Below are positions 5,952 to 64,000 of a stretch of 64,000 nucleotides of DNA, piece by piece. Position 1 is the first letter of the stretch; every line of letters begins with the position of its first letter. The notes below the pieces were generated by a model. That model did not search any database. It was not told the origin of the DNA and was given only the letters and a program-made list of their open reading frames with translations. The translations under genes and the position numbers were made by a program. Location of the stretch: positions 248,001 through 312,000 of the forward strand of contig NZ_JAKGTI010000001.1 of NCBI RefSeq assembly GCF_021568695.1, in the 5' to 3' direction. This stretch comes from Maritalea mediterranea (GTDB taxonomy: Bacteria > Pseudomonadota > Alphaproteobacteria > Rhizobiales > Devosiaceae).

Positions 5952-5970
5952 ATCGGGCCCATGGCTAAGA

Positions 5971-6168: not shown

Positions 6169-6180
6169 CAGGCTGGTGAT

Positions 6181-46517: not shown

Positions 46518-46621
46518 ACAACCCTCAGCGTAAAAAGATTAGCGGTCGATCTGCCCTGCTTTTCGGTGTCATTTAAGACCAGCTCTGTGCTCTTTGTCGC
46601 ACCCATTTATCTTGACAATTA

Positions 46622-46636
46622 GAACAAAAAGTGAAC
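46622..46636. promoter_or_regulatory. LexA (SOS) box, alphaproteobacterial type
   Basis: GAAC-N7-GAAC (GAAC at 46622-46625 and 46633-46636), the direct-repeat LexA site known for Rhizobiales and Caulobacter. It lies 63 bases before imuA and so should give SOS control of the whole cassette. Confidence 0.85.
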
Positions 46637-46698
46637 ATTTAAGGAGTCTGGCGAGAAACAGCCACTTTACGAGTCTGGCAATGAGGTGGATGATGCGC

Positions 46699-47592
46699 AT
46701 GGACAAACGGCAACAATTTGTGGATTTGCAGCAAAAGCTGCGCCGGCTGGAACAGGCAGAGACGCAGGGCCACGGGCTGCATGCCTATCGCCATGCGACC
46801 CTGCCCGATACCCTGACCCCGGCCAATGATGTTGGCGGGGGCGCCAGCTCATTAAGCCTGCCGCCCTTTGTCACCCAAAGGCGCGACCCCCTGTTGCACT
46901 GGTGGCGGCAAGCATATTCATCCGATATTTTAACCCGTCCGGCAGTGCATGAAATTTACCCCCAAATCTATGGGGACCTGGCCAGCCTGAGCTTTATGCT
47001 GCTCAGCCTTAAAATGCTGCTGCGTGACCAAAGGGAAAAAGCCCCGATTCTGTGGTGTGTCCCGCAATATGAAGTGCGAGAGATGGGACATTTATACGGG
47101 GCGGGTTTGACCACATTCGATCTGGATCCCGGCCAATTTATCTTTGTGACCCCAAAGAGCGCACAAGACACATTATGGACGCTGGAGGAGGCGGCGAACA
47201 GCAAAAGCTTTGCAGCGATTGTGGGCCATGTTGAGGACCCGAGTTTCACCCAAACCCGCCGCTTGTCGCTGGCCTGCCAGAAGGGGCTGACCCCTTTATT
47301 TCTGCATCGGCCGCATGATTGCCAGGGCACCAGCGCCGCGTTTTCCCGCTGGCGGATCGAAAGCCAGCCCAGTGCCAGAAATCCGCTGGATCAACGGGCC
47401 CCGGGCACCCGCAAAATCAAAGCCCATTTAGTGCGCGCCCGCACAGGTCAAACCGGTTCATGGAGCCTTGAATATGAAACCACGGCGTATCCTTTGTATA
47501 TGGTTTCCCAACCTGCCAATCGAACATTTGCGGATCGCGTGGCGGCAAGATCGCGCGCATCCCTCACTGGAGAGCGCGCAGGCGGCGAATAA
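46699..47592 (+). CDS. imuA: SOS mutagenesis protein ImuA
   Basis: About 297 residues. A RecA-fold-related accessory protein of the imuA-imuB-dnaE2 translesion cassette. VHEIYPQIYGDLASLSFMLL, ILWCVPQYEVREMGHLYGAG and FIFVTPKSAQDTLWTLEEA match the family; no intact Walker A is seen, as is usual. ATG 46699 is preferred because AGGTGG at 46684-46689 precedes it; ATG 46681 is an alternative. The upstream TTG at 46594 cannot be the start as it lies before the LexA box. The C-terminal 40 codons overlap imuB. Confidence 0.88.
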   Translation: MDKRQQFVDLQQKLRRLEQAETQGHGLHAYRHATLPDTLTPANDVGGGASSLSLPPFVTQRRDPLLHWWRQAYSSDILTRPAVHEIYPQIYGDLASLSFMLLSLKMLLRDQREKAPILWCVPQYEVREMGHLYGAGLTTFDLDPGQFIFVTPKSAQDTLWTLEEAANSKSFAAIVGHVEDPSFTQTRRLSLACQKGLTPLFLHRPHDCQGTSAAFSRWRIESQPSARNPLDQRAPGTRKIKAHLVRARTGQTGSWSLEYETTAYPLYMVSQPANRTFADRVAARSRASLTGERAGGE

Positions 47593-49075: not shown

Positions 49076-52000
49076 GCGCCTATGCCGAACTGCAAGTCAC
49101 CTCGAATTTTTCCTTTTTGCGCGGCGGCTCGCACCCCAATGAGCTGGTGGCCTCCAGCTATATGCGCGGTCATTCGGCCATCGCCATCACAGACCGCAAC
49201 AGCTTTGCCGGCATTGTACGCGCTTTTCGCGAAGCCAAGCATATTCGCAAAGCGGATGAAAACACGCCCTTTCGCCTGATTGTCGGCGTGCGTCTTGATC
49301 TGGAAGATGGCTATAGCCTTTTGGCCTATCCCACGGACCGGGAGGCTTTTGGCCGTTTATGCACGCTCTTATCTTTGGGCAAGATGCGCGCGGAAAAGGG
49401 CGAGTGCCATCTGGATTTTGACGATGTGAAAGACCATTGCCGCGGTTCCATTTTTGCCCTGATCCCGCCCGCCAAGTTTGAAAAAGCTGAGATCACGCAT
49501 CTAGCCCAAATGGCCAAAGCCTTGCCCAAGCCGGTCTATCTGGTGGCCAGTGCTGCCTATCGTGGTGACGATCGCGCCCATATTGCGCGGCTGAACAATC
49601 TGGCTACCCAGTTGGGGGCACAACTGCTGGCCAGCAATAATGTGCTTTACCATGAGCCGGAGCGACGCGATTTGCAGGATGTGCTCACCTGCATTCGGGA
49701 AAAAACCACCATTGAAAGGGCTGGATTTCTGCTGAGCGCCAATGCTGAGCGCCACCTGAAACGCCCCGAGGAAATGGCGCAGCTGTTTAAAGGCTATGAG
49801 CATGCCTTAACCGCCACTCTAGATATCGCTGCCCGCTGCCAGTTTGAGCTGAGCGATCTGAAATATGAATATCCTGACGAGACCGTGCCTGCGGGCAAAA
49901 CACCTCAGGATTATCTGGCAGAAGAAACCTGGGCCGGGGCAAAATGGCGTTATCCCAATGGGGTGCCGGACAAGATCAAAATCAATATTGAAAATGAGCT
50001 GAAGCTGATCGCGCAAAAACAATATGCGCCTTACTTCCTCACGGTCTATGATATTGTGAAATATGCCCGCACCCCACAACCGGACAAGGGCCGGTTTGAT
50101 GAAATATTGTGCCAGGGGCGCGGGTCAGCGGCCAATTCCACCGTGTGTTATTGCCTGGGCATCACCTCGGTGGACCCCAATGAAATAGATTTATTGTTTG
50201 AGCGCTTTATCACCGAAAACCGCAATGAGCCGCCTGATATTGACGTGGATTTTGAGCATGAACGGCGCGAAGAGGTGATCCAATATATTTATGAGCGTTT
50301 TGGCCGCCACCGGGCCGGGCTGACCGCTACGGTGATCACTTATCGCTCGCGCTCTGCCATTCGTGAAGTGGGCAAGGCCATGGGGCTGACCGAAGATGTG
50401 ACCGGCGTAATGGCGTCCACCATCTGGGGCTCCTGGGGATCGGCGGGCGACAAAAATTTAAGCGAATCCGGGCTGGATTTTTCTGACCCCTATCTCACCA
50501 AAGTGGTGGAGCTGACCCGGGAACTGATCGGTTTTCCACGCCATTTGTCGCAACATGTGGGCGGCTTTGTGCTCACCCAGCGCCCCTTGATTGAAACCGT
50601 ACCCATCGGCAATGCCGCCATGGATGACCGCACCTTTATCGAATGGGACAAGGACGATATCGAAGTGCTGGGTATTTTGAAGGTGGATGTGCTGGCGCTG
50701 GGCATGCTCACCTGCATCCGCAAAGCCTTTGATCTGTTGCGGGCCCATTATGATATCGACCATAATCTCGCCAGCATTCCACAGGACGACCAGCTGGTTT
50801 ACGACATGATCTGCCGCGCCGATACGCTGGGCACTTTTCAGGTGGAAAGCCGGGCGCAAATGAGCATGCTGCCGCGCCTGAAGCCGCGTATATTTTATGA
50901 TCTGGTGATTGAGGTCGCGATTGTGCGGCCCGGGCCCATTCAGGGCGATATGGTGCATCCCTATTTGCGCCGCCGCAAAGGGCTGGAGCCGGTGGAAATG
51001 CCATCCCCCGCGCCCGAACATGGTCCGCCCGATGAGCTAAAACGGATTTTGCAAAAAACCATGGGCGTGCCTCTGTTTCAGGAACAGGCCATGCGCATTG
51101 CCATGGAGGCTGCCAAATTCCGCCCCAGCGAGTTGGATGAACTGCGCCATGCCATGGCCACCTTTCGCCGGTCTGGCACCATCCATACGCTTGAAGAGCG
51201 CATGGTGGAGCGTATGGTGAAGCGGGGGTATAGCCGCGACTTTGCCCAGCGTTGCTTCAACCAGATCAAGGGCTTTTCCGAATATGGTTTTCCAGAAAGT
51301 CACTCGGCCAGCTTTTCTTTGCTGGTCTATGTGTCGTGTTGGCTCAAACATCATCACCCGGAAATTTTCGCTACCGCACTGCTCAACGCTCAGCCCATGG
51401 GCTTTTATGCCCCAGCCCAGATTGTGCGCGACGCGAAAGAGCATAATGTTGAAATTCTGCCTGCCGATATTAATCATTCGGCATGGGACTATACGCTGGA
51501 GCCTGTTGAGGAGGTGGGCGACCCGCCGCCAGCACCGGCGCCCGTTGCCCCCGAACATTGGGGCAAGTCCATCAATCAACACTCAAAATTGTGGGCGCAA
51601 CTCTATCCCAAGCGCAAATGGGCCATCCGGGTGGGGCTACGTCAGATCGATGGTTTTCATCAAAGCTATGCCGAGCAGATCGTGGCGGCACGGCAGCAAC
51701 AGCCCTTCACCTCTATGGAGGATTTATATCACCGGGCCGGGCTACGCCGGTTTGATGTGGAGCGCCTGGCCGATGCAGACGCCATGCGCTCCATTGGCCT
51801 GGATCGTCGCCAGGCCAAATGGGCCGCGCGCGCCTTGACACCTGCCAAGCCCTTGCCCCTATTTGACCATGCCAATGCGTCAGAGCAGGGTGAAAAGCAA
51901 GCCACACAATTGCCGGCCTTGCGCCCCTCAGAACATGTATTTGCCGATTATCAATTCACCCGCTTCTCTTTAAAAGCGCACCCCATTTCCTTCCTGCGCG

Positions 52001-52455
52001 AAGAGCTGCAGCAACGCCGTTTGCACACGGCCCAGGATATTAGAAAATTGGCCCATAATAGATGGGCCAGCATGGCCGGGGTGGTGCTGGTGCGTCAGCG
52101 GCCCGGCACTGCAAAGGGGGTGGTGTTCATGACGCTGGAAGATGAAACCGGTGTCACCAATGTGGTTGTGTGGAAAAAGCTTTTGGAAAAATACCGCAAG
52201 GTGGTGATGGGCGCCAAGCTGATCGAAGTGCATGGGCAGATACAAACCGAAGATAATGTGATGCACCTGATTGCCCGCAAACTGGTCGACCGCACCAACT
52301 GGTTGGAAAAGCTCTCCGATGGCTTTGTGCGCCCGGCTTATGCCCCGGCGGATGAGGTGGTGTCCAATGTCGAATATGACAGCCGTGTCAAACCCGATAC
52401 TGCCCGCCACCCCCGCAATGTCCGCGTCATCCCGCGTTCACGCGATTTTCACTAG
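49072..52455 (+). CDS. dnaE2: Error-prone DNA polymerase DnaE2 (ImuC)
   Basis: 1127 residues, C-family polymerase. An N-terminal PHP domain (YAELQVTSNFSFLRGGSHP, AIAITDRNSFAGIVRA), the catalytic aspartates in RNEPPDIDVDFEHERR, and VLKVDVLALGML further on identify the alpha-subunit fold. The OB-fold region near the C-terminus reads AGVVLVRQRPGTAKGVVFMT, which is typical of DnaE2. It makes mutagenic translesion copies during the SOS response together with ImuA and ImuB. ATG 49072 overlaps the imuB stop. Normal family length. Confidence 0.95.
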   Translation: MSAYAELQVTSNFSFLRGGSHPNELVASSYMRGHSAIAITDRNSFAGIVRAFREAKHIRKADENTPFRLIVGVRLDLEDGYSLLAYPTDREAFGRLCTLLSLGKMRAEKGECHLDFDDVKDHCRGSIFALIPPAKFEKAEITHLAQMAKALPKPVYLVASAAYRGDDRAHIARLNNLATQLGAQLLASNNVLYHEPERRDLQDVLTCIREKTTIERAGFLLSANAERHLKRPEEMAQLFKGYEHALTATLDIAARCQFELSDLKYEYPDETVPAGKTPQDYLAEETWAGAKWRYPNGVPDKIKINIENELKLIAQKQYAPYFLTVYDIVKYARTPQPDKGRFDEILCQGRGSAANSTVCYCLGITSVDPNEIDLLFERFITENRNEPPDIDVDFEHERREEVIQYIYERFGRHRAGLTATVITYRSRSAIREVGKAMGLTEDVTGVMASTIWGSWGSAGDKNLSESGLDFSDPYLTKVVELTRELIGFPRHLSQHVGGFVLTQRPLIETVPIGNAAMDDRTFIEWDKDDIEVLGILKVDVLALGMLTCIRKAFDLLRAHYDIDHNLASIPQDDQLVYDMICRADTLGTFQVESRAQMSMLPRLKPRIFYDLVIEVAIVRPGPIQGDMVHPYLRRRKGLEPVEMPSPAPEHGPPDELKRILQKTMGVPLFQEQAMRIAMEAAKFRPSELDELRHAMATFRRSGTIHTLEERMVERMVKRGYSRDFAQRCFNQIKGFSEYGFPESHSASFSLLVYVSCWLKHHHPEIFATALLNAQPMGFYAPAQIVRDAKEHNVEILPADINHSAWDYTLEPVEEVGDPPPAPAPVAPEHWGKSINQHSKLWAQLYPKRKWAIRVGLRQIDGFHQSYAEQIVAARQQQPFTSMEDLYHRAGLRRFDVERLADADAMRSIGLDRRQAKWAARALTPAKPLPLFDHANASEQGEKQATQLPALRPSEHVFADYQFTRFSLKAHPISFLREELQQRRLHTAQDIRKLAHNRWASMAGVVLVRQRPGTAKGVVFMTLEDETGVTNVVVWKKLLEKYRKVVMGAKLIEVHGQIQTEDNVMHLIARKLVDRTNWLEKLSDGFVRPAYAPADEVVSNVEYDSRVKPDTARHPRNVRVIPRSRDFH

Positions 52456-52483: not shown

Positions 52484-54523
52484 CTAACGCAGGCTGGCTT
52501 CAATATTGCCGCCATCAACTGTCATAATATGCGCGGTGGTCCGTGCCGCTAAAGCCAGCGCCACAAAGGCGTCCGCCACATGGCTTGCCTCAACCTCACA
52601 CTTAAGCAAATTGCCGGCCATATAGCTTTCGGCGCTTATGTTGCGGGACTTTGAGCGGCTTTCGATGAACTCATCGGTGAGCAGGCCAGAGCGGATACGA
52701 TCGGCATTAACGCCATTGACGCGAATGCCCAATTCGCCGAGCTCAAGAGCAAATTGCTTCACCAGGAAGAAGGTGGCCGCTTTCGGCAAACCATAAGCCC
52801 CGAAATCTTTGCCCGGGTTAACCGCCTGCTTGGACACGTTGAACAAGATCTGCCCGCCGGTGCCTTGTACCTGCATAACTTTTGCGGCGGATTGGGCGAT
52901 TTTCTGGTGAGAGAAAAAGTTCAATTCAAAGCTGTTGCGCAAGGTGTCCTCATCCATGTCCAGCATGGATTTTGACCAGGCGGCACCCGCATTGCTGACC
53001 AGAATATCAATGCCACCAAACCGTCTCACCATGGCATCAATGGCATGTTGCGGGCCTTCGGCACTGCACAAATCAATCACCGCGCCATCATGATCCATGC
53101 CCAGCTCATCGAGCGCAGTCATCAGATTGTCTTGGTCACGGTCCACCAAAAAGATGTTCGCCCCTTGGTCTTTAAAGGCTTTGGCGGTTGCCAATCCGAT
53201 GGCGCCCGCGCCCCCGGTCACCAACACAGCCTTGCCCTGCAATGGCTTTGGTTTGGCTTTGCCCAATTTGGCCTGCTCCAAAGACCAATATTCCATATCG
53301 AACAAGTCATTTTCTTCGATCGGATAAAAGCCACCATTGGCCTCGGCCCAACCCATAACCTGAATAGTTTGCGTGCCCAAATCAGCCGCGATGCGTGCGG
53401 CGGATGCATTGGCACCTGCACCAATCAAACCAAGGCCGGGCACCCAGAAAAGGTTTGGTGTTGGCACCAGCATGGTTTTCTTGTCGCTCACCCGGGCATC
53501 CTGCCGCGCGAAATAGGCTTTATAGCTGTCCACAAACGCATCAATGGCAGCGTCAACGCTGGATTGATCGTCACTGGCGATGATGGTGGGGAAGCCTTTG
53601 GTGCGGATCACATGGTCCGGTGTGGCCACGCCACGCTTGGCCAGATCGCTCAAATCATCGCGGGTCAAAAAGCTCAAAATTTGATCATTGGCGCGCAAAT
53701 CCAAAAACGGTGCTGCCTGATCCTGATTGCCCGTATGTTCCTTCATGGCGCGGGCCAGGCTGGCGCGAATTTTTGGTAAAATGCTCTTCGCACTCACCGT
53801 TGGACTTGGTGCGAGTGCTGGCTGAGCGGCGCGTGCATTGAACCACGCTTCAACCGCACTCACATGCTCAACCATCAACTCATAAGAGCTTTTCGCGTCT
53901 GGCCCAAAAGTAAAGTGGCCATGATTGATCAGATGTAACCCTTCAACATTTGGGTTTTGATCAAAAATATCGGCCGCGACTTTTGCCAGCTCAAAACCGG
54001 GCATAATGTATGGCACCAGCGCGACCTTATCGCCAAAAATCTCGTTCACCACCTCTGCCACATTCGGCATATTGGCCAATGCCAACATGGCAGTGGCGTG
54101 GGTGTGATCAACAAATTTATGCGGTATATAGGCGTGCAGCAACGTCTCTACTGACGGATTTGGTGAGGTGCTGTCCAGCAAATTGGAGCGCTGCAGGTTC
54201 ACCATATCTTCATCAGACAAAGCAGGTAGTTCACGCAGCTTATTGAGCGGTTCAGTTTGCACGCCGGGCAGACCCGCCGCTTCAATGGTTTCCAGATCCC
54301 AACCGCTGCCTTTAACATGCAGCACATCAATCTCATCGCCAAAAATATTGGGCCGTTTGACCTTCACAGACGTGTTGCCGCCGCCATGCATCACCATGTC
54401 AGGGTCTTGACCAATCAATCGGGATGTATAAACCCTCAAAGCCAGTTGACGATCTGCTTCCTCTGGGCCAGCATTATCGAGAAAAGATTGCGCGTCTTGT
54501 TCGTTCCAGAGATTTTTTACCAC
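52484..54523 (-). CDS. Class II aldolase-short-chain dehydrogenase fusion (rhamnulose-1-P aldolase-like)
   Basis: About 679 residues. The N-terminal half is a class II (zinc) aldolase: phosphate loop MHGGGNTSVKV, zinc histidines in VDHTHATAML and INHGHFTFG. The C-terminal 240 residues are an SDR: VLVTGGAGAIGLATAKAF and catalytic YGLPK, ending HIMTVDGGNIEASLR. The fusion matches the RhaD/RhaE-type bifunctional enzyme of rhizobial rhamnose pathways, but the neighbours here are mtnA and mtnK, so the likely substrate is 5-deoxyribulose-1-P or 5-methylthioribulose-1-P. The frame is open to ATG 54583, but that codon lies inside the promoter palindrome; GTG 54523 (VKNLWNEQD) fits better. Confidence 0.82.
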   Translation of the reverse strand: MVKNLWNEQDAQSFLDNAGPEEADRQLALRVYTSRLIGQDPDMVMHGGGNTSVKVKRPNIFGDEIDVLHVKGSGWDLETIEAAGLPGVQTEPLNKLRELPALSDEDMVNLQRSNLLDSTSPNPSVETLLHAYIPHKFVDHTHATAMLALANMPNVAEVVNEIFGDKVALVPYIMPGFELAKVAADIFDQNPNVEGLHLINHGHFTFGPDAKSSYELMVEHVSAVEAWFNARAAQPALAPSPTVSAKSILPKIRASLARAMKEHTGNQDQAAPFLDLRANDQILSFLTRDDLSDLAKRGVATPDHVIRTKGFPTIIASDDQSSVDAAIDAFVDSYKAYFARQDARVSDKKTMLVPTPNLFWVPGLGLIGAGANASAARIAADLGTQTIQVMGWAEANGGFYPIEENDLFDMEYWSLEQAKLGKAKPKPLQGKAVLVTGGAGAIGLATAKAFKDQGANIFLVDRDQDNLMTALDELGMDHDGAVIDLCSAEGPQHAIDAMVRRFGGIDILVSNAGAAWSKSMLDMDEDTLRNSFELNFFSHQKIAQSAAKVMQVQGTGGQILFNVSKQAVNPGKDFGAYGLPKAATFFLVKQFALELGELGIRVNGVNADRIRSGLLTDEFIESRSKSRNISAESYMAGNLLKCEVEASHVADAFVALALAARTTAHIMTVDGGNIEASLR

Positions 54524-54561
54524 GAGGCCGTCCGTCCAATTTTTAGGGATGATTTTTTGTA

Positions 54562-54592
54562 ATTTGACAAATGTTAGTAACATCTGTCAAAT
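54562..54592. promoter_or_regulatory. Divergent promoter palindrome between the aldolase and SorC genes
   Basis: Two 14-base arms, ATTTGACAAATGTT and AACATCTGTCAAAT, with one mismatch and a 3-base centre (54576-54578). On the plus strand TTGACA (54564-54569) is followed after 17 bases by TCAAAT; a similar pair can be read on the minus strand. It therefore looks like back-to-back promoters covered by one operator, bound presumably by the SorC protein. Confidence 0.75.
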
Positions 54593-54610
54593 AGAAAAAA
54601 GAGGGGAATT

Positions 54611-55588
54611 ATGGCATACGGCAAAAGGCGGGCCTCTGGCCAGGTGAGTGGTGATGAAATTGTGGTCGAAGCCGCATGGCTTTATTATCACGATGGGCTG
54701 AACCAAAATGAAATTGCCGACCGGCTGGATGTCTCACGCGCCACCGTGGTCAATTATTTGCAGGAAGCGCGGGAGAAGAATTATATCCGCGTCACCATGG
54801 CCCCAGACGTGTTTATGGGCCATAAGCTCTCCCACCAACTGCGCGAAAAGTTTAAGCTGAAAGCCGCCTTCATTGTGCCCAATGGCCAGGGTGACATCCA
54901 ATCTCGCCTCAACCGTGCTGCGCGTGGTGCGGCGGAATGGCTGCCGGACTTGGTGGCGCCCGGCGACAAGCTGGGCGTGGCGTGGGGGCAAACCATTTTT
55001 GAAATGGCTGAACTATTGGTTTCCTCCGCCAATGTGACCATCCCCGATGTGGAAGTCGCCCAATTGGTGGGTTCGATGGCGACCCCCTACGGGTTTACCG
55101 CAGAAATCTGTTCGGCGCATCTGGCTCAAGGTCTTGGGGCGGCATGTATCAACTTGCATGCCCCTGCCATTGTGACAAATGTGGAATTGGCGCGGCAGTT
55201 GCGGGCCGAGCCGATCATCAAGAAACAGTTGGCCGCCTTAGAACAGTGCAACAAGGCTGTGTTTGCCGCAGGTTCGGTGAGTGCTGACTCTCACGTTGTG
55301 ATGAGTGGTATTGCCACCGAAGCCGATTTAAAAACCTATGTCGATCAGGGCGCGTGCGGCGTTTTGTGTGGTCGTTTTGTGGATCGGGCGGGCAAGCCGG
55401 TGCATGGACCACTGGACGAGCGAATGATCGGCATTGAGTTGGAAAAACTCACCGACTTGGAAATGGGGCTACTGGTCTCTGTAGGCGAAGACAAGGCGCA
55501 CGCTATGGCGGCGGTGATGAATGGCGGCTATGCCACCCATTTGGTGACAGACGCCGAAACGGCCCAGCTCATTCTGGCTCTAGATTAG
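54611..55588 (+). CDS. SorC/DeoR-like sugar-responsive regulator
   Basis: 325 residues. The N-terminal helix-turn-helix is AAWLYYHDGLNQNEIADRL with SRATVVNYLQEAREKNYI, then a SorC-type sugar-phosphate-binding domain (GDKLGVAWGQTIFEMAELL, VAQLVGSMATPYGFTAEIC). Such proteins sense a phosphorylated sugar intermediate. GAGGGG precedes ATG 54611. The gene diverges from the aldolase gene over a 31-base palindrome, so it likely controls itself and both flanking units; a related dyad lies between mtnK and the ABC operon. It converges on mtnA. Confidence 0.9.
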   Translation: MAYGKRRASGQVSGDEIVVEAAWLYYHDGLNQNEIADRLDVSRATVVNYLQEAREKNYIRVTMAPDVFMGHKLSHQLREKFKLKAAFIVPNGQGDIQSRLNRAARGAAEWLPDLVAPGDKLGVAWGQTIFEMAELLVSSANVTIPDVEVAQLVGSMATPYGFTAEICSAHLAQGLGAACINLHAPAIVTNVELARQLRAEPIIKKQLAALEQCNKAVFAAGSVSADSHVVMSGIATEADLKTYVDQGACGVLCGRFVDRAGKPVHGPLDERMIGIELEKLTDLEMGLLVSVGEDKAHAMAAVMNGGYATHLVTDAETAQLILALD

Positions 55589-55624
55589 ACCGATCTACGC
55601 CCCTCAAAACGTCACAAAGAAAAA

Positions 55625-55650
55625 GGGCGCAAACTGAGTTGCGCCCCTTT
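55625..55650. terminator. Bidirectional terminator between sorC-type gene and mtnA
   Basis: GGGCGCAA (55625-55632) and TTGCGCCC (55639-55646), loop ACTGAG, A-run before and T-run after. It can serve both convergent genes. Confidence 0.85.
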
Positions 55651-55656
55651 CCCACT

Positions 55657-56751
55657 TTATTCCTGCTCAGGGAATAGGTTTTTCAAACCTTCATTAGATG
55701 CAGCGCACACGCCCCGCTCTGTGATCAAGCCGGTGATCAACCGCGCCGGTGTCACATCAAAGGCGGGGTTGCCGCCCGGCGTTGCATCTGGCGAAATCTG
55801 CACCCAATCACGTGCGCCATTTTCCAGCTTGCCATAAACATGGGTCACTTCGCGGCCATCGCGTTCTTCAATCGGAATTTCCTTCACGCCGTCATTTACG
55901 GTCCAATCGATGGTGGGTGAAGGCAGGGCCACATAGAACGGCACATTATTGTCTTTAGCAGCCAGCGCTTTAAGATAGGTGCCGATCTTGTTGCACACAT
56001 CGCCTTGGGCGGTGGTGCGGTCAGTCCCCACAATCACCATGTCCACTTGCCCATGCTGCATCAAATGGCCGCCCGCATTATCGACGATCAACGTATGTGG
56101 CACGCCATGGCTTGCCATTTCCCAGCTGGTCAATTGTGCGCCCTGGTTGCGGGGGCGGGTTTCATCCACCCACACATGCACTTTAAGGCCCTTTTCAACC
56201 GCGTGATAGATGGGCGAGGTGGCGGTGCCCCAGTCCACAGTGGCGAGCCACCCCGCATTGCAATGAGTTAAAATATTGATCGTTTCACCAGGAGCCTTCT
56301 TCGCCGCAATCTCTTCAATGAGTTTGAGGCCATTTTGGCCAATGGCGCGATTGATCTCTACATCTTCATCGCAAATTTCTGCCGCCAATTTATAAGCAGC
56401 TGCCGCCCGTTCTGTCGGCGCGATGGCGCTCAGTTGGGCTTTAGCCCGGTTCAAGGCCCAGCGCAAATTGATCGCTGTGGGGCGGGTCTCGTGCAAGATT
56501 TCCCAAGACGCTTCAAGATTTTCATCTGATGGATCATCGGCCATGGCCAGTGCCATGCCATAGGCGGCTGTGGCGCCGATCAACGGCGCGCCGCGCACCC
56601 ACATATCTTTAATGGCGACCGCCGCATCTTCACGTGATTTAAGGTCCACCACTTTCAACTCATGTGGCAACAAACGCTGCTCGATGATTTTGACGGTCTT
56701 TTGATCTTCCCCCAACCAAATGGAGCGATAATGAGTGCCATCTATTTTCAT
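55657..56751 (-). CDS. mtnA: S-methyl-5-thioribose-1-phosphate isomerase
   Basis: 364 residues. Interconverts the 1-phospho-aldose and 1-phospho-ketose of 5-methylthioribose and also 5-deoxyribose. MtnA marks: [20 protein letters not shown], the catalytic Cys in [17 protein letters not shown] and the catalytic Asp in [19 protein letters not shown]. Its start overlaps mtnK by 4 bases (ATGA), giving a kinase-isomerase pair. No other genes of the classical methionine salvage route (mtnB, mtnC, mtnD) are nearby, so the product probably goes to the aldolase at 52484-54523. Confidence 0.96.
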
Positions 56752-58016
56752 AGGAAATTGTCCTTTCTGACCGCGCGCGCAAGCTCGGCGATTTGATGTG
56801 GGGATTTATAAGCGTCGCGTGAGATCACGATCTGACGGCCAAACTGCAAAGCCCGGGCCTCGCACGCTGCGCGCAAATCTGCGTCTTCAATGCTGTCGAG
56901 CTCCATAATGTGGGCAAGGCCCAAAATGCGGCGATGCATCTCAATACCGCCAAAGCCAAGCGCATCTGACCAGATTTGATTCAGGCGATCCGTCAGTGCT
57001 TGCTCAGATGCAAGGTTTTGGCCTTGATCTTCATAAAGCCGCTTGTCGTAAAGAATGCCGGTGCGCTCCGTACGCCACAAATGGCTGAATTCTTCTTCAA
57101 AATGGTGCCAGATGTCGCACGTGACATCCAAAATCCATTGCGCATAATCATCACGCACGCCTTTAGACGCTTCATGACCATCCTGTGCGAAGAACGCCAT
57201 ATAGAAATTGCCCAGCAACATGCCAATGTCGAAGCCGAAGGGGCCATATGTAGCAAACTCAGGGTCAATCACCACCGTGTCACTTTCGGTGACCATAATA
57301 GAGCCCGTGTGCAAATCACCATGCAACAGCGTTTCAGCATTGTTGCAGAACTTGGCTTTGAAATGCTGTGCCGCAACCTTCATATCGATGTCTGCGCGCA
57401 GGCTCGCCACAATCCCATCCAATTGCGGGCTGGTATGGCGGTTCATCTCGGCATCGAAATATGGATCGGTGAACACAAGATTTTCGGTGATGTCACACAA
57501 TTCGATATTGTCGGCGAAAAGTGCCAGATCTTTTTTGCGCTCTTTGGTGTCCATGGACAGGTCAGACCCGCGGAACAGGGTCCGGGCGCAAAATTTCCCC
57601 ATCACTTCGGCCAGATTGTCGTGCTTGATCCCATCGCGCAAGCTGTTGCGCAAGATCACATGCGGGGTCATGAATTGCATCACGATCAGCGCCTGTGATT
57701 CGTCAAAATGATAAACCTCGGGCACATCTTCGGGGGCATTTTTTGCTTGGCGAATAAGCGCGTGATATTCGAAAAACGCCCGCTTCAACGGCAATGGCCA
57801 GCTGTCGCCCACCAACCGCACATAAGGCAGTGCCTGCTTCACAATCGCCTGGCCATTTGGGCCCGTGACAATAAAGACAAGGTTGAGGTTGCCATCGCCA
57901 ACTTCTTGCGCCGACCAGTGCGTGGCATCAGGCCCAACTTTTTCTTTCAAGATCTCCAAATGGCCAAGTTTTTCGCCAATTGTGTCTACATTTAATGGTT
58001 CATATGGATTGCTCAC
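56748..58016 (-). CDS. mtnK: S-methyl-5-thioribose kinase
   Basis: 422 residues, aminoglycoside-phosphotransferase-like kinase. [13 protein letters not shown] is the catalytic loop and [19 protein letters not shown] the metal-binding loop with the MtnK-type DPEFA. ATP-dependent 1-phosphorylation of methylthioribose or 5-deoxyribose is the expected reaction. It starts with GTG 58016 preceded by GGGAGGA. It is divergent from the ABC transporter operon and shares a dyad-rich promoter region with it. Confidence 0.95.
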
Positions 58017-58120
58017 AATATCCTCCCAATGCGCTGGTCACGCTAACAAATTCAAGGGTTAGGGTGACATGGCAAGCGCAAAACGCCAAACACATATTGC
58101 CCCATGATTTGCAATTTAAA

Positions 58121-58168
58121 TGTCAAATGTCAATAACGTTTGACATTTGATGCGAAATGCATTTATCG
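58121..58168. promoter_or_regulatory. Divergent promoter and operator between mtnK and the sugar ABC operon
   Basis: TCAAATGTCAA (58123-58133) and TTGACATTTGA (58140-58150) form perfect 11-base inverted arms with a 6-base centre. On the plus strand TTGACA (58140-58145) stands 17 bases before TTATCG, a fair sigma70 promoter; TTGACA also reads on the minus strand toward mtnK. The core pattern AATGTCA-N8-TGACATT recurs with one change at 62413-62434. Confidence 0.7.
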
Positions 58169-58188
58169 TGCCGCTATCGGAGGAGTTT

Positions 58189-59724
58189 ATGGCTGGAATA
58201 CCCATCAAAATTCGCGGGCTTGAAAAGCGTTTTGCGGCCAATCGTGTGCTGCGCGGCGTGGATTTAGATATTCCTGCGGGCAAAGTCACGGTGCTGATGG
58301 GCGCCAATGGGGCAGGCAAATCCACCTTGGTCAAAATCATTTGTGGGCTTTATGCCGCCGATGCAGGCCAAGTTGAATTGAATGGAAAGCCCTTCGCACC
58401 AACCACACCTTCCGAGGCGCTGCAAGCGGGTATTGTGACCGTCCACCAAAATATCAATGATGGGGTGGTGCCGGATTTGGATGTGGCATCAAATCTGATG
58501 TTGGATTGGCTGGCCAACCCGAAAAGTGCGCCCGTGCTCAACCCCCGCAAAATCCGCCGCTCTGCGGAAGAAATCGCTGCAAAACTGGGCCTCAATTTTG
58601 ATATGAATATGATGGTGAGTGATCTCACCCTGGCGGATCGGCAATTGGTGGCCATTGCCCGCGCCATGGCCCATGAGCCAAAATTGATGATTTTGGATGA
58701 GCCGACCAGCTCGCTCTCCGCATCAGAGGCCGAGCGGCTTTTTGCGCTTGTCGACAAGTTGCGCGAAGGCGGCGTGGCCATTCTTTATATTTCTCACCGC
58801 ATGTCAGACATTCGCCGCGTGGCGGACCGCATTGTCTCCATGCGCGATGGCACGATCGTGGGCCAATATGAAACCGAGCCCCTCGATTATGAGGGCGCGG
58901 TGAACGATATGCTCGGCCATACCATGACTGATGTGGACATCACAGTGCAGAAGCCGGGCGAAAAAGTGTTGGAGCTGGAAAATGTGCAGCTCAAACCTGA
59001 AAGCAAACCGATAAACCTGAACGTGCACCGCAATGAGGTGATCGCCATTACAGGTTTGGTGGGCGTGGGCAAAACCCAGCTGACCGAAGTGTTGTTCGGT
59101 CAAACGGCTGCGGCCGGCGGCACAGTGCGCCTAAAAGGCGAAAGCTACACGCCGAAATCCGCGCGCGATGCGATCAATCAAGGCGTGTTTTTGTGTGCGA
59201 AAGACCGCGGCACAAATGGTGTGGTGCAGGATTTTGATATCAACCGCAACATCACATTGCCTTTCCTTTCAAGCCTATCAACGCTTGGCTTTGTGCGCCG
59301 CCGTGCCGAATATCGCATCACCAATGAGGCCATCAGCAAGCTGGGCATTGTGTGTCAAAGCGCCAATGATGACATCGGGACGCTCTCCGGCGGCAATCAG
59401 CAAAAGGTGATGGTGGGCCGCTGGCTATCGCACCCGAGCGATGTGTTGATTCTGGACGAGCCGTTCCAAGGCGTGGATATCGCCGCCCGGCGCGACATTG
59501 GCACCAAACTGCGCGAAACCGCGAAGGATCGGGCAACCATTGTTTTGGTGGCCGAGTTAGACGAAGCCCTGGAGATTGCCGACCGCATTCTGGTGATGGC
59601 TGAATTCACCATTGTGGGCGAGCACAAAAATGAAAATGTCGATGTCGACCTGATCTTGGAACAAGTATCAGGCGCGGCGGCACCTCAAGATCTACAAGAA
59701 CAAAAAGAAGGGGCTGCTCGATGA
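58189..59724 (+). CDS. Ribose-type sugar ABC transporter ATPase (two ABC domains)
   Basis: 511 residues, RbsA/MglA layout with two nucleotide-binding domains. First: Walker A GANGAGKSTL, signature-like LTLADRQLVAI, Walker B LMILDEPTSSLS. Second: degenerate Walker A GLVGVGKTQL, signature LSGGNQQKVMVG and VLILDEPFQGVD. GGAGG at 58179-58183 fixes ATG 58189. It energises the importer with the permease and binding protein downstream. The expected substrate is a pentose derivative, from the mtnK/mtnA context. Confidence 0.93.
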   Translation: MAGIPIKIRGLEKRFAANRVLRGVDLDIPAGKVTVLMGANGAGKSTLVKIICGLYAADAGQVELNGKPFAPTTPSEALQAGIVTVHQNINDGVVPDLDVASNLMLDWLANPKSAPVLNPRKIRRSAEEIAAKLGLNFDMNMMVSDLTLADRQLVAIARAMAHEPKLMILDEPTSSLSASEAERLFALVDKLREGGVAILYISHRMSDIRRVADRIVSMRDGTIVGQYETEPLDYEGAVNDMLGHTMTDVDITVQKPGEKVLELENVQLKPESKPINLNVHRNEVIAITGLVGVGKTQLTEVLFGQTAAAGGTVRLKGESYTPKSARDAINQGVFLCAKDRGTNGVVQDFDINRNITLPFLSSLSTLGFVRRRAEYRITNEAISKLGIVCQSANDDIGTLSGGNQQKVMVGRWLSHPSDVLILDEPFQGVDIAARRDIGTKLRETAKDRATIVLVAELDEALEIADRILVMAEFTIVGEHKNENVDVDLILEQVSGAAAPQDLQEQKEGAAR

Positions 59725-60740
59725 GCGAAACCCGTGTGAACAAAAAATCCATGTCACTGACAGATTATGCCATCCGCTATGGCTTTGTGGCCTTGCTGGT
59801 TGGCCTCGTGGTCTATTTCAGCGTCGCGGCAGATGGTTTTGCCAGTCCCTATAGCGCGGTGTTTATCTTCCAATCAGTGGCCATCACCGGCATTTTGGCT
59901 TTGGGTGTGACCGCCACTTTGGTTGTGGACGGTTTTGACCTTTCTATCGGCGCAGTCGCCACCTCGGCCTTGATGCTTTCTGCCTATGTGATGGTGGTGA
60001 TGGAACAAAGTGCATTGGTGGCGGTGGTTGCCTGCTTGCTGATGGGCGCCCTGGTGGGCTTGATCAACGGGTTTTTGATTGTGCAAATGCGGGTGCCAGA
60101 CCTGTTGGCCACCTTGGGCATGATGTTCTTGCTGATCGGTTTGCAGCGCATTCCAACCGAAGGCCGGTCAATTGCGACAGGCATGAGTTTGCCGGACGGA
60201 TCAACCGCTGCGGGCAGTTTTTCCCCTGAGTTTTTAGCGCTTGGCCGTCACCGCTTTGACTTTTTTATCGACAATTTGATCCCGGTTTCTGTGGTCTTTT
60301 TGATCGTTATTGCCATCGGCATCTGGCTGTTTCTTGAATATACCCGCTATGGCCGCGTGATGTATGCGATCGGGTCAAACCAACGCGCGGCAAGCTTGGC
60401 GGGCGTGCCAGTGAAAAAATACAAAATCATCGCCTATATGATTTCCGGCGTGCTGGCCTCTGTCGGCGGCATCTTGCTGGCAGCACGTTTGGGCCGTGGT
60501 GACATTGCTTCAGGCAACAACTTGCTGCTCGATTCCGTGGCGGCCGCGCTGATCGGCTTTGCCGTTTTGGGTGCCGCAAAGCCAAACGCATTCGGCACCG
60601 CCGTGGGCGCGCTTTTTGTTGGCATTTTGCTGCAAGGCCTCACCATGATGAATGCCCCTTACTACACCCAGGATTTTGTGAAAGGCGGCGTGCTGGTTGT
60701 CGCGCTTATGTTCACATTTGCCCTTTCAAATAGACGCTAG
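59721..60740 (+). CDS. Ribose-type sugar ABC transporter permease
   Basis: 339 residues, about ten membrane helices, BPD_transp_2 family. The N-terminus has a soluble basic part (NKKSMSLTDYAIRYG) before the first helix; LGVTATLVVDGFDLSIGAVA and the coupling-type YAIGSNQRAASLAGVPVKKY stretch are typical of RbsC. It overlaps the ATPase gene by 4 bases (ATGA). Confidence 0.93.
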   Translation: MSETRVNKKSMSLTDYAIRYGFVALLVGLVVYFSVAADGFASPYSAVFIFQSVAITGILALGVTATLVVDGFDLSIGAVATSALMLSAYVMVVMEQSALVAVVACLLMGALVGLINGFLIVQMRVPDLLATLGMMFLLIGLQRIPTEGRSIATGMSLPDGSTAAGSFSPEFLALGRHRFDFFIDNLIPVSVVFLIVIAIGIWLFLEYTRYGRVMYAIGSNQRAASLAGVPVKKYKIIAYMISGVLASVGGILLAARLGRGDIASGNNLLLDSVAAALIGFAVLGAAKPNAFGTAVGALFVGILLQGLTMMNAPYYTQDFVKGGVLVVALMFTFALSNRR

Positions 60741-60794
60741 GCCCGACCACCCTAGAGCGTTCAACAAAGCGGTCGATTAAATCGGAGGAAACAA

Positions 60795-61841
60795 ATGAAA
60801 CTAACAAGACGCGTTTTTGCTAAAATGCTTGCAGGGGTTTCCCTTGCCGCATCTAGCTTCGTAGGGCTGGCCCATGCAGCCGATATGCCTGCCCCGTTCG
60901 ACAATCCAGGTGACGTGAAGATCGCCTTGGTGCGCTATTTGTCAACCGGCGACTTTTTCCAAGCCTATTTGTCTGGCGTTGAGCGCCAAGCAGAGGCTTT
61001 GGGCGTTGATCTGCGCGTGCTCGACAGCCGCCAGGATGCAGCCTTGCAGGCAGACATGGTCGACCAGGCGATTGCCCTGGGCGTGGACGGCATTATTGTT
61101 CAACATGGCTTGACTGAATCCATGCAGGCAGCCGTGCAACGTGCTGTGGATGCCGGCATCAAAGTTGTGGCTTTTGACGTGAATGTTGAAAACCCGGCCG
61201 TACCGCAGATCGAACAGTCTGACCGCGACTTGGCCCGTTTGGCTTTGGAACAAGCGATCGCTGACAATGGCGAGAGCTGGAAAGCCGGCTATGTCTATGT
61301 GCCAGGCATCGCGCCATTGGATCGTCGTAACGAAACTTGGGTAGAGTTCAAAGAGCGCTATCCGGGCATTGAGGAAAAAGCGCAGTTCGGCACATTGGAC
61401 AACCCAATCGCCAACTCAAACGCCAACCAGGCCCGTTCAGTATTGTCTGCAAACCCAGACATCACTGTGATGTTTGCGCCCTATGACGAATTCGCCAAAG
61501 GTGTAAAAATTGCTGTTGATGAAGCAGGCATGACCGATCAGGTCAGCATCTATTCTGCTGACGTTTCAACATCTGACATCGCTGCAATGCGCGAGCCAAA
61601 TAGCGCATGGAAAGCCACCGCAGCAACCAACCCAGCGGTTGTGGGCGAAGTTTCCGTACGGGCGTTGGCCATGTTGTTGGCGGGTGAAGATCCAGGCGCC
61701 AGCGTTGTGGTGCCCCCAACCTTGATCACCCAAAAAGATCTGTTGGAAAAGGACATCAAAAACATGGAAGAGCTGAGCGAAAAACTGCCACAGTTCGCCC
61801 ATGCGCCAGTGGCGGTGCCAGACTGGATGCCACTGCCATAA
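60795..61841 (+). CDS. Periplasmic sugar-binding protein of the ribose-type importer
   Basis: 348 residues. Signal peptide with a hydrophobic core (LAGVSLAASSFVGLAHA-A), cleaved near residue 29, then a Peripla_BP_4 domain: IALVRYLSTGDFFQAYLSG, DSRQDAALQADMVDQAIALG and GVDGIIVQHG. Related to RbsB but with a different ligand pocket region, so ligand identity is open. GGAGG precedes ATG 60795, and a terminator-like hairpin follows the gene at 61881-61922. Confidence 0.93.
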   Translation: MKLTRRVFAKMLAGVSLAASSFVGLAHAADMPAPFDNPGDVKIALVRYLSTGDFFQAYLSGVERQAEALGVDLRVLDSRQDAALQADMVDQAIALGVDGIIVQHGLTESMQAAVQRAVDAGIKVVAFDVNVENPAVPQIEQSDRDLARLALEQAIADNGESWKAGYVYVPGIAPLDRRNETWVEFKERYPGIEEKAQFGTLDNPIANSNANQARSVLSANPDITVMFAPYDEFAKGVKIAVDEAGMTDQVSIYSADVSTSDIAAMREPNSAWKATAATNPAVVGEVSVRALAMLLAGEDPGASVVVPPTLITQKDLLEKDIKNMEELSEKLPQFAHAPVAVPDWMPLP

Positions 61842-61880
61842 TTTAAGGACATTACCTTAAAAAGACGCAACCCTTTGACT

Positions 61881-61922
61881 GGGGCGATCTGTCGGGCAGC
61901 ACCCGTCGGTCGCCCCATTTTT
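61881..61922 (+). terminator. Stem-loop after the binding-protein gene
   Basis: GGGGCGA (61881-61887) with TCGCCCC (61910-61916), an inner CGGG/CCCG pair, and a T-run just after. Probably partial termination that keeps the binding protein in excess over the genes behind it. Confidence 0.75.
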
Positions 61923-61936
61923 CTTTGGAGGCCAAA

Positions 61937-62380
61937 ATGCTCAAAGGCATAGATTCTAAACTGTCCGCCCACCTTGTTTACCTGATGATGCAAATGGGCC
62001 ATGGCGATGAGATTGCTATTGTTGATGCTAACTTTCCGGCGCAGTCAACCGCCCTTGAAACCGTCTCTGGCGAGTTGGTTGACCTGCCTGCCATGGATGC
62101 ACCAGCTCTCATCGAGGCAATGATTTTGCATTTTCCGTTAGATGAATTTTATGACTTTGCCGCGTGGCGCATGGAAATTGATGGCGCGCCGGACGAGTTG
62201 GGCGAGGTGCATAGCCAAGTGTTTACGCTGTTGGAAAAGGCCAAGCCAGAGGGCGCCAAATTGGGCTCGCTCGAACGTCAAACCTTTTACCAGCAGGCCA
62301 AAAATTGCTTCGCTGTTGCGCGCGTGGGCGAGATGCGTCCCTTCGGGTGCTTCATCCTGCGCAAGGGCGTGATTTTTTAG
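61937..62380 (+). CDS. RbsD/FucU family sugar mutarotase
   Basis: 147 residues. LSAHLVYLMMQMGHGDEIAIVDANFPA holds the GHGDEI...DANFPA signature (split here as GHGDEIAIVDANFPA). Family members interconvert pyranose or furanose anomers of ribose or fucose before phosphorylation. Length and start resemble FucU more than RbsD. GGAGG at 61927-61931 fixes ATG 61937. In this locus it would supply the anomer that the mtnK product requires, which argues that the imported sugar is a reducing free sugar, not a nucleoside. Confidence 0.9.
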   Translation: MLKGIDSKLSAHLVYLMMQMGHGDEIAIVDANFPAQSTALETVSGELVDLPAMDAPALIEAMILHFPLDEFYDFAAWRMEIDGAPDELGEVHSQVFTLLEKAKPEGAKLGSLERQTFYQQAKNCFAVARVGEMRPFGCFILRKGVIF

Positions 62381-62412
62381 CCATTTTGCGGTGCTTCGAT
62401 CTTTATTTATCA

Positions 62413-62434
62413 AATGTTATGTGATACTGACATT
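62413..62434. promoter_or_regulatory. Possible third operator upstream of the transketolase genes
   Basis: AATGTTA (62413-62419) and TGACATT (62428-62434), 8-base spacer, the same spacing as the AATGTCA-N8-TGACATT core at 58126-58147. One position differs from a perfect dyad. It lies 45 bases before the transketolase start. Confidence 0.5.
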
Positions 62435-62478
62435 AGTAATAATTGATGTATTCACGCCAACTTTGATTGGGGAATCTG

Positions 62479-63408
62479 GTGAAGAATAAAAAAACCACTG
62501 AAGAAGTCGCGTTGGGCATTCGCCGTCGCGTTTTTGAACATTCCATGCGCAACAATGGCGGCTATTTGAGCCAAGCTTGTTCCGCTGCCGAGCAACTGGC
62601 GTGGCTATATAATGAAGCCTTGAATTTGGGTGAACCCACCATGCCCATGATTCCGCCGCCATTCGGCGGTGTGCCCGCCCCCGGCAATGATGATTATGTG
62701 ACCGGCGCGGGCTATAACGGCCCGTTTGAACCGCAATATGATCGCCTGTTCATCGCGCCAGCGCACTATGCTTTGGTGGCCTATGCCACATTGATCGAAG
62801 TGGGGCGCATGGCCGAAGAAGGGCTGGAAATGTTCAACAAAGACGGCTCGTCAGTTGAAATGATCGGGGCGGAACACTCCCCCGGCATGGAGGTGCACAA
62901 CGGCACATTGGGCATTGGCCTTTCCACCGGCGCGGGCCTTGCCTATGGCCGGCGCATGCGCGGCGACAGCGGTGAAGTTTGCGTGTTCATGTCTGACGGT
63001 GAAGTGCAAGAAGGCCAGACATGGGAAGCCATTCAAGCCTGTGCGCACCACGGCATTGACAATGTGTGGGCCATAATGGACGTGAACGATCAGCAATGTG
63101 ATGGTGCCATGTCTTCTGTGATGGAAGTGCGCGACATCGCCACAAAAATGCGGGCCTTCGGCGCCACCGTGGTGGAAATTGACGCTCATGATCTGGACGC
63201 CATGCGTCAGGCCAAAGCTGAGCCTCATGACGGCCAGCCATTGATCATTCTTGCCCATTCTTCGCCAACCAAAGGCATGGAATTTTTGCAACGGCGCTTC
63301 CCGCGTTTGCACTATGTGCGCTTTAAGTCTGAAGAAGAACGCGATGAGATGAACCAATCTATCGCCAAAGAACTGGGCATTGATCCCGTTCAATTTGACA
63401 CGCATTAA
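62479..63408 (+). CDS. Transketolase, N-terminal (thiamine diphosphate-binding) subunit
   Basis: 309 residues. The TPP-binding region is VFMSDGEVQEGQTWEAIQAC followed by WAIMDVNDQQCDG, and the substrate-side AEHSPGMEVHNGTLGIGLST corresponds to the conserved GSLGQGL stretch. It is the first half of a split transketolase, the other half starting 14 bases later. GTG 62479 is chosen because GGGGA at 62469-62473 precedes it. Split enzymes of this kind serve special sugar pathways (for example apulose-phosphate) as well as normal pentose metabolism. It could use a keto-sugar phosphate from this locus as ketol donor. Confidence 0.9.
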   Translation: MKNKKTTEEVALGIRRRVFEHSMRNNGGYLSQACSAAEQLAWLYNEALNLGEPTMPMIPPPFGGVPAPGNDDYVTGAGYNGPFEPQYDRLFIAPAHYALVAYATLIEVGRMAEEGLEMFNKDGSSVEMIGAEHSPGMEVHNGTLGIGLSTGAGLAYGRRMRGDSGEVCVFMSDGEVQEGQTWEAIQACAHHGIDNVWAIMDVNDQQCDGAMSSVMEVRDIATKMRAFGATVVEIDAHDLDAMRQAKAEPHDGQPLIILAHSSPTKGMEFLQRRFPRLHYVRFKSEEERDEMNQSIAKELGIDPVQFDTH

Positions 63409-63422
63409 GGGAGTAAACTGAG

Positions 63423-64000
63423 ATGGTTGAAATGGTAACGCGCCCTTATGCGAGCGCTTTTGAAAAATACGCACTGGCCAATAAAGATGTGATCTGCATG
63501 TCAGCGGATTTGACATCGTCTTGCGAAATTGACGGTTTCCGCGATCGGCACCCTGAGCAATTTATGTCCATGGGCATGGCCGAGCAGAACATGATGAGTT
63601 TCGCTGGTGGCTTAGGCCTTGCAGGCTATCGCCCCTTCATTCACACCTTTGGGGTGTTCACCTATCGTCGACCCTATGACCAATTGATGGCCTCCATCGC
63701 TTATCCGCGCCGCAAAGTCCGGATTATGGGCTTTTTGCCAGGTGTCACCACACCCGGTGGCATGACCCACCAAGCGATTGAAGATATTGCCATTATGCGC
63801 GCCATGCCCAACATGTCGATTTTGGAAACAGGCGACGCGACAGAGGTTGAAAGCCTTTGCGAAGCGGCAGACTCAATTGATGGTCCGGTTTATTGCCGCG
63901 TATTGCGTGGTTCGGTGCCCCGCTTGTTCGACACGCCAATCAAGGTTGGCGAAATGCGCGAGCTTTCTGCTGGGGATGATGTGTTGGTGGTGACCGCAGG
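63423..64000 (+). CDS. Transketolase, C-terminal subunit (cut by window edge)
   Basis: The open frame from ATG 63423 runs off the window end; 192 codons are visible. The start reads MVEMVTRPYASAFEKYALAN, with the pyrimidine-domain glutamate in SMGMAEQNMMSFAGGLGLAG and the GMTHQAIEDIAIMRAMPNMS stretch that follows in transketolases and DXS. GGGAG precedes it, and it forms a pair with the N-terminal subunit gene. The Rossmann-like C-terminal domain is outside the window. Confidence 0.9.
   Translation, partial: MVEMVTRPYASAFEKYALANKDVICMSADLTSSCEIDGFRDRHPEQFMSMGMAEQNMMSFAGGLGLAGYRPFIHTFGVFTYRRPYDQLMASIAYPRRKVRIMGFLPGVTTPGGMTHQAIEDIAIMRAMPNMSILETGDATEVESLCEAADSIDGPVYCRVLRGSVPRLFDTPIKVGEMRELSAGDDVLVVTA

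Follow-up and report, generated by a model that had tools for sequence, protein, structure and literature searches.

What could a split transketolase contribute to a gene cluster that otherwise looks built for the breakdown of a 5-substituted ribose? The question is raised by a locus of the marine bacterium Maritalea mediterranea at the end of a 64,000-nt stretch of contig NZ_JAKGTI010000001.1 (positions 248,001-312,000; "the window" is this whole stretch, and feature coordinates are window positions). An original prediction had traced a path at this locus from sugar uptake to aldol cleavage, and that part of it is supported. Its gene list stands: every gene named is an open reading frame at its place and matches its family profiles. 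The path was incomplete, however, with the transketolase (TK) left without a role and one gene out of sight. Three bases past the gene for the TK C half, beyond the window, lies a gene for a RuBisCO-like protein (RLP) of 373 residues (contig 312431-313552, window 64431-65552). With the RLP in the gene set, the pathway seems to fork into two exits and to be more than a dihydroxyacetone phosphate (DHAP) shunt. We give a probability of about 0.6 to the reading that this is a catabolic locus for an imported 5-substituted ribose, combining a DHAP-shunt exit with an RLP/TK exit.

Proposed pathway

The genes and their families, their neighbourhoods, the kinship of the RLP and the changed residues of the TK are computed results, and the substrate is assigned by homology. 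On this basis, a ribose-type (CUT2) ATP-binding cassette (ABC) importer would take up 5-X-ribose, where X is most likely SCH3 and perhaps H. A FucU-like mutarotase would then supply the right anomer, MtnK the 1-phosphate and MtnA 5-X-ribulose-1-phosphate, as expected from the known families. At the first exit, which follows known DHAP-shunt chemistry, the aldolase domain of a fusion protein would cleave 5-X-ribulose-1-phosphate into DHAP and X-acetaldehyde (X-CH2-CHO), and the fused short-chain dehydrogenase (SDR) domain may dispose of the aldehyde by oxidation or reduction. The second exit would be a new combination. The RLP would shift the carbonyl by 1,3-isomerisation to give 1-X-xylulose-5-phosphate, for example 1-(methylthio)xylulose-5-phosphate, and a non-canonical split TK would cut this product between C2 and C3. 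The cut, a step put forward here only, would release glyceraldehyde-3-phosphate (G3P) and leave an X-CH2-CO unit on thiamine diphosphate (ThDP), which may pass to some acceptor or lose X.

The RuBisCO-like protein

The nearest solved relative of the RLP is the R. palustris RLP 3qfw, both by sequence (207 bits) and by fold (TM 0.82-0.88 on an RLP model of pLDDT 82). The model of the apionate RLP, OiaX, is far from reached (NF042437, 66 vs 700 bits). A tree of 66 RLPs unites 3qfw in one clade with 12 cupin-linked RLPs and one unlinked sequence (support 100/100); all 44 TK-linked RLPs fall outside this clade, and MtnW is more distant. The tree has long branches, that of a Vibrio RLP among them, its bootstrap is not settled, and none of its sequences is labelled as the R. 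rubrum RLP or as RLP1 of R. palustris. The TK-linked and cupin-linked RLPs share the motifs KP (136-137), KxDH (161-164), PNxGGRF (288-294) and PxPxGG (320-325), neither group departing from them more than once at any position (the Vibrio RLP reads KEDD), and two MtnW sequences differ there. According to one report, two RLPs that work with a cupin, that of R. rubrum and RLP1 of R. palustris, have been shown to be 5-methylthioribulose-1-phosphate 1,3-isomerases (PMC5893883); 3qfw is an R. palustris RLP as well, possibly this one. The RLP of this locus thus appears related to the isomerases of the methylthioadenosine (MTA)-isoprenoid shunt, and may share their role.

Similar RLPs are also found in other settings. 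One that groups on the TK side (59% identical) lies without a TK next to a PfkB kinase and a ribose-type importer (L123:6918-13900). Two Megasphaera loci (L047:9466-10569 and L048) hold RLPs 41% identical to the one here, with neither TK nor cupin detected, and in the first of them the gene after the RLP resembles LarE by eye.

The split transketolase

The TK is encoded on the forward strand by two genes, one for the ThDP-binding N half (62467-63408; PF00456, 52 bits against a cutoff of 22) and one for the C half (63423-64000). The window ends inside the latter, which reaches 64427 when the sequence is read on; its part within the window scores 90 bits on PF02779 (cutoff 27). The N half matches the split transketolase 6yak at 116 bits. 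We aligned 48 pairs of N and C halves from 44 distinct loci, this one included and the second copies L050-L052 and L060 retained, with E. coli TktA, DXS and a solved split TK; TktA residue numbers were verified on the MG1655 sequence. The catalytic Glu (E411), the ThDP-proximal His residues (H66 and H473) and R520 are retained in all 48 pairs. The column of TktA H26 holds Tyr in 47 pairs and a gap in the remaining one, that of D469 holds Gly in 48/48, and no pair has His at the columns of H100 or H461. Measured against a canonical transketolase, the enzyme has kept the catalytic residues and not those of the substrate site. DXS likewise lacks the H100 residue in this alignment, and its product has no C1 hydroxyl. 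The residue changes would suit a donor without the normal C1 hydroxyl.

One tentative form of the second exit makes the split TK a ThDP-dependent carbon-sulfur lyase, which after C2-C3 cleavage would expel methanethiol, or methanesulfenate from a sulfoxide, from the enamine. Such expulsions are familiar from phosphoketolase, which expels water, and from sulfoacetaldehyde acetyltransferase, which expels sulfite. The products would be G3P, an acetyl unit (acetate or acetyl phosphate) and methanethiol. A BisC-family reductase encoded beside the TK, where one is found, would prepare oxidised (methylsulfinyl) forms for this reaction. We give this version a limited chance of being right.

Linkage across loci

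The association of RLP and TK was followed in 62 RLP loci, drawn from 8 of 346 plasmid records, 9 loci, 14 of 25 other matching genomes (every one at 45% identity or more), 8 of 16 and 26 of 33 in two further sets (the M. mediterranea genome and one already taken are not counted in the last) and one second RLP place; the set leaves aside four second copies (L050-L052, L060) and is not an even sample. A TK C half adjoins the RLP in 44 of the 62, with the N half also present in 43; by extrapolation, -4 to +60 bases separate the RLP from the C half. A homologue of the cupin of locus L038, presumed to be the methylsulfurylase from its position beside the RLP, occurs in none of these 44 and in 12 of the 18 others, which leaves six loci with neither TK nor cupin. 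A single query with this cupin found no match in the M. mediterranea genome, a weak negative. The 44 TK-RLP loci are spread over several families of Alphaproteobacteria, a Vibrio plasmid and two metagenome-assembled genomes of Bacillota. By cut-off, 26 of them carry MtnK, 29 the binding protein and 29 the SorC regulator; MtnA is found in 29 and the fusion in 18 (22 with L039 and L041-L043 added), both counts being lower bounds given short stretches and broken genes. When the phylum was sampled evenly, 7 of 398 genomes, that of M. mediterranea included, had the TK C half at E <=1e-70.

The same locus occurs in M. mobilis, M. myrionectae and M. porphyrae (protein identity 77-100%), and rearranged versions are present in Rhizobiaceae and other Devosiaceae. 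This recurrence indicates that the genes are not grouped by chance. The modules upstream of TK-RLP vary. Loci of the present type have importer, MtnK and MtnA. Ponticoccus has a nucleoside-type importer, a purine nucleoside phosphorylase, an amidohydrolase, MtnA and a BisC-like reductase, and locus L112 an FGGY kinase, a Zn-dehydrogenase, a class II aldolase, a PfkB kinase and a BisC-like reductase. Two BisC-family S/N-oxide reductases beside TK-RLP score below the cutoff of 1018 bits (L033:9785-12061, 901 bits; L112:13745-16048, 848 bits) and hint at methylsulfinyl substrates; a scan of the M. mediterranea genome for such a reductase gave partial matches only, below the cutoff. Conversely, the stretches read hold regulator, fusion, importer, mtnK and mtnA in Shinella sumterensis, mtnA and fusion in Ruegeria, and importer, mtnK and mtnA in S. 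meliloti, all without TK-RLP. Since such sets occur on their own, each exit seems to be a module that can be separated from the other.

Three further TK clusters (L174-L176) were considered outside the 62 loci; an RLP is present in two of these and absent in one. The latter, L174, resembles L161:4472-13005 and L162:4441-13005 in having TK halves without an RLP in the stretch, together with an FGGY kinase, a SorC regulator and a BisC-like reductase. L161 and L162 additionally carry a Zn-dehydrogenase, an AraD-like class II aldolase, a sulfonate-type ABC importer and a sulfatase. In these three clusters a kinase perhaps leads directly to the substrate of the TK.

The aldolase-dehydrogenase fusion

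The first exit would depend on a fusion of class II aldolase and SDR domains encoded on the reverse strand (52484-54583; Aldolase_II and adh_short domains), which scores 880 bits on NF006192 (cutoff 639). Its aldolase HTH/HGH motifs and its SDR motifs TGGAGAIG and YxxxK are present. Translation probably begins some 20 codons downstream of 54583, near 54520, because the NF006192 match starts at residue 22, most of the 26 closest plasmid homologues listed show a similar offset (match start at residue 15-22 in 21 of them, at 3-7 in five), and a palindrome sits at 54562-54592. The fusion had been likened to rhamnulose-phosphate enzymes. Domain order and family are indeed the same, but the RhaD model falls short of its cutoff (TIGR02632, 451 vs 567.75 bits). 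Fusion homologues mostly beside rhamnose kinase and isomerase genes would have spoken against the original prediction, and the neighbourhoods examined do not show this. Among the plasmid homologues listed (26 at 48.8% identity or more and 34 at 45.1% or less, with 246 further records beyond the list), 19 of the 26 lie within 5 kb of mtnK; another three have RLP/TK within 8 kb, and one adjoins mtnA (23 of the 26 examined); two of the 34 were examined, and these, at 44-45% identity, sit in other contexts. No rhamnose gene is named in six of these neighbourhoods, which were read with annotation (L034-L036, L040, L158, L159). A rhamnose function of the fusion is disfavoured by the missed RhaD cutoff and by the position of its closest listed homologues near mtnK, mtnA, RLP or TK.

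In three Rhizobiaceae plasmids (L034, L039, L159), VapBC toxin-antitoxin genes lie between fusion and binding protein; in L034, VapB only is annotated.

Uptake and substrate

The sugar handled by the locus is most likely 5-methylthioribose, and perhaps 5-deoxyribose too, as judged by homology. The periplasmic binding protein (60795-61841, forward strand), probably a 5-methylthioribose-binding protein, has 4ry8 as its best solved relative (226 bits, 119 of 316 aligned residues identical; next best, 134 bits), the title of which starts 'Crystal structure of 5-methylthioribose transporter solute binding protein TLET_1677'. It is preceded on the same strand by the genes for the CUT2 ATPase (58147-59724, with the ATG at 58189 probably the true start) and permease (59721-60740), both assigned by family profiles. 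MtnK (56748-58016) and MtnA (55657-56751) are encoded on the reverse strand by genes overlapping by four bases and score well above the cutoffs for 5-methylthioribose kinase (TIGR01767, 488 vs 275 bits) and 5-methylthioribose-1-phosphate isomerase (TIGR00512, 434 vs 279 bits). Among solved structures, MtnK matches 2pyw at 359 bits and the methylthioribose kinase 2olc at 268 bits. One copy of mtnA was found in the whole genome, which also encodes an MTA/S-adenosylhomocysteine nucleosidase (MtnN, 238 bits vs cutoff 152). The predicted path, in which a 5-deoxypentose is imported, phosphorylated at C1, isomerised and cleaved by an aldolase, is supported, and the binding protein, the MtnR-homologous regulator, MtnN and the single mtnA make 5-methylthioribose the best-supported sugar. 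The mutarotase (61925-62380, forward strand) had been named as RbsD/FucU; the family holds (PF05025, RbsD_FucU, 100 bits vs cutoff 25), and the protein leans to FucU (59 bits) over RbsD (36 bits), with both full models below cutoff.

An arsenosugar substrate (X = dimethylarsinoyl), considered on chemical grounds alone, was dropped, as there is no evidence for it.

Regulation

Between the fusion and mtnA lies the gene for a SorC/DeoR-type regulator (54611-55588, forward strand; PF04198, 186 bits), which is identical to YjhU of E. coli MG1655 in 117 of 326 columns (36%, E 2e-73). In E. coli, YjhU is MtnR, the repressor of the DHAP shunt, and repression is relieved by substrates such as 5-deoxyribose, as described in PMC12632272. 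Two operator-like palindromes, to which no strand is assigned, fall in the two divergent intergenic stretches of the locus: ATTTGACAAATGTTAGTAACATCTGTCAAAT (54562-54592; 10-base arms with one mismatch) between fusion and regulator, and TCAAATGTCAATAACGTTTGACATTTGA (58123-58150; 10-base arms without mismatch) in the gap that separates mtnK from the genes of the importer. An MtnR-like SorC repressor would act at the two divergent promoters, with the palindromes as putative sites. The second palindrome recurs between mtnK and importer in the Maritalea relatives and in L108, and its half-sites are found at that position in L034, L035, L062 and L109. When the genome was scanned with a pattern drawn from TCAAATGTCAATAACGTTTGACATTTGA, allowing up to three mismatches, the hits were its own site (0 mismatches), ATTTGACAAATGTTAGTAACATCTGTCAAAT (3) and one other site (3), and the reversed control gave 0 hits. 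A third operator suspected by eye before the TK N gene was not hit by the palindrome and pattern scans.

In the importer-mtnK-mtnA locus of S. meliloti Ak57 (L160), two separate SorC-like matches fall in a stretch without annotation (approximately 5101-6201), which may be a regulator gene that has been broken.

Alternative explanations

Several observations weigh against the two-exit reading. Every enzyme role at the locus is predicted from sequence, and our literature search found no biochemical precedent for the TK step. The TK-linked RLPs stand outside the clade that holds the tested isomerase type, and the tree leaves the order among the groups undecided. RLP and TK also part company: three of the clusters examined, each with an FGGY kinase, have TK and no RLP (L161, L162 and L174), and in L123, L134 and the two Megasphaera loci an RLP that falls outside the cupin clade has no TK beside it. 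The mechanistic roles of H26, H100, H461 and D469 are those we assume for them, and the TK signature is partly shared (Tyr at H26, FLPG, no D469) by a Variovorax split TK in an unrelated context, so that these residues cannot by themselves identify the substrate. A BisC-family S/N-oxide reductase occurs in 7 of the 44 TK-RLP loci, none of them with the fusion in the stretch read, so substrate chemistry may differ between variants. Finally, ATTTGACAAATGTTAGTAACATCTGTCAAAT fits the operator pattern no better than one unrelated genomic site.

The locus might instead be a plain DHAP shunt for 5-methylthioribose or 5-deoxyribose, with TK and RLP as passengers or in some other role. The sets without TK-RLP in Shinella sumterensis, Ruegeria and S. 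meliloti speak for this, but the TK N, TK C and RLP genes are tightly packed and are accompanied by MtnA in 29 of 44 loci across several families. Moreover, the fusion missed the cut-off in 12 of these 29; four do have it (L039, L041-L043), and eight are without it in the stretch, so that the second exit seems able to stand without the first. We therefore hold a plain shunt to be unlikely. If the sugar were ordinary ribose or the ribose of nucleosides (X = OH), the RLP would turn ribulose-1-phosphate into xylulose-5-phosphate, the standard TK donor, and both the 'ribose-type' importer and the purine nucleoside phosphorylase adjoining MtnA-TK-RLP in Ponticoccus would find a place. The replaced substrate-site residues of TK in the sampled loci, the MtnR homology of the regulator, and a binding protein nearest to that of a 5-methylthioribose transporter and scoring just 51 bits on the RbsB model (cutoff 337) make ribose quite unlikely.

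TK could also act directly on 5-deoxyribulose or its 1-phosphate to give lactaldehyde, leaving the RLP another role; the SDR of the fusion would oxidise the lactaldehyde, a compound handled by the SDR domain of rhamnulose fusions. A promiscuous TK reaction is mentioned in PMC8102628 as an earlier suggestion for later pathway steps. Yet TK tracks the RLP more than it tracks the fusion, which is present in half of the 44 TK-RLP loci at best count, and a ketose-1-phosphate bears its phosphate on the very carbon that TK would transfer; we regard this route as very unlikely. Most improbable of all is that the RLP is an MtnW-type enolase of universal methionine salvage. Its best NCBIfam match is an MtnW model (NF007095), but at 186 bits it stays far under the cutoff of 409 (TIGR03332, 137 vs 513.6), and the RLP stands apart from MtnW in the tree and at the motif positions. 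The substrate of MtnW would also be missing: the MtnB dehydratase of that pathway belongs to PF00596, and since the only protein of this class II aldolase family found in a genome scan is the fusion, no MtnB was found to supply it. These model cutoffs, the tree, the motif positions and the lack of a found MtnB disfavour an enolase identity.

Neighbouring genes

The RLP gene is followed on the opposite strand by a urease operon, named by eye. Just before the locus (46594-52455) lies a probable imuA-imuB-dnaE2 SOS mutagenesis cassette, in which DnaE2 matches its model NF004225 at 1431 vs 939 bits; ImuA and ImuB were named by eye and have no NCBIfam match at 1e-20. Beside this cassette (45741-46517) is an HpaI-type 2-oxo-acid aldolase (TIGR02311, 379 vs 368.8 bits).

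Relation to known systems

If the two-exit reading is true, it provides a new fate for 5-methylthioribulose-1-phosphate and a new use both of a RuBisCO-like protein and of transketolase. It would explain how the sugar is disposed of in organisms that have MtnK and MtnA and lack the methionine-salvage dehydratase or the cupin. The breakdown of a common by-product of S-adenosylmethionine would feed straight into central carbon metabolism and might also release methanethiol. Were the lyase version true, there would be a third route of sulfur salvage from MTA, independent of oxygen and glutathione.

The locus has MtnK, MtnA, a class II aldolase and an MtnR-homologous regulator in common with the DHAP shunt (MtnK-MtnA-Ald2 and DrdK-DrdI-DrdA). 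It can be placed there by its MtnK and MtnA, both above curated cutoffs, and by a class II aldolase domain clustered with them. Sugar transporters in four drawn DHAP-shunt clusters, and a fucose-mutarotase homologue in one, are seen in PMC6079011. In contrast to that shunt, the aldolase is fused to an SDR domain instead of standing alone as in Ald2 or DrdA, and the RLP and split TK are added. The fusion shares domain order and family with the rhamnose enzymes RhaD/RhaEW and differs from them in its score on the RhaD model and in its neighbours. The TK is split into two genes like that of Carboxydothermus hydrogenoformans (6yaj/6yak), in which the equivalents of E411, H66, H473 and R520 are likewise retained, whereas the equivalents of H26, H100, H461 and D469 are replaced in the TK group of this locus.

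For the second exit, the closest known system is the MTA-isoprenoid shunt of R. rubrum and R. palustris (MtnP, MtnA, the DeepYkr RLP and a cupin methylsulfurylase). MtnA and an RLP with the cupin-linked motif set are common to both; the present locus has no cupin, the split TK takes its place, and MtnK instead of MtnP feeds the pathway. In R. palustris, mutants in rlp1 or ald2 alone are reported to be mildly affected and those in both severely (PMC5893883), a pattern in line with two exits there. Judged by titles and the starts of abstracts, the papers listed by searches aimed at an RLP-transketolase link in an open-licence library, outside which most subscription papers lie, include no description of one. 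The parts are known, and the RLP and TK branch that unites them seems to be an undescribed variant of methylthioribose/5-deoxyribose salvage.

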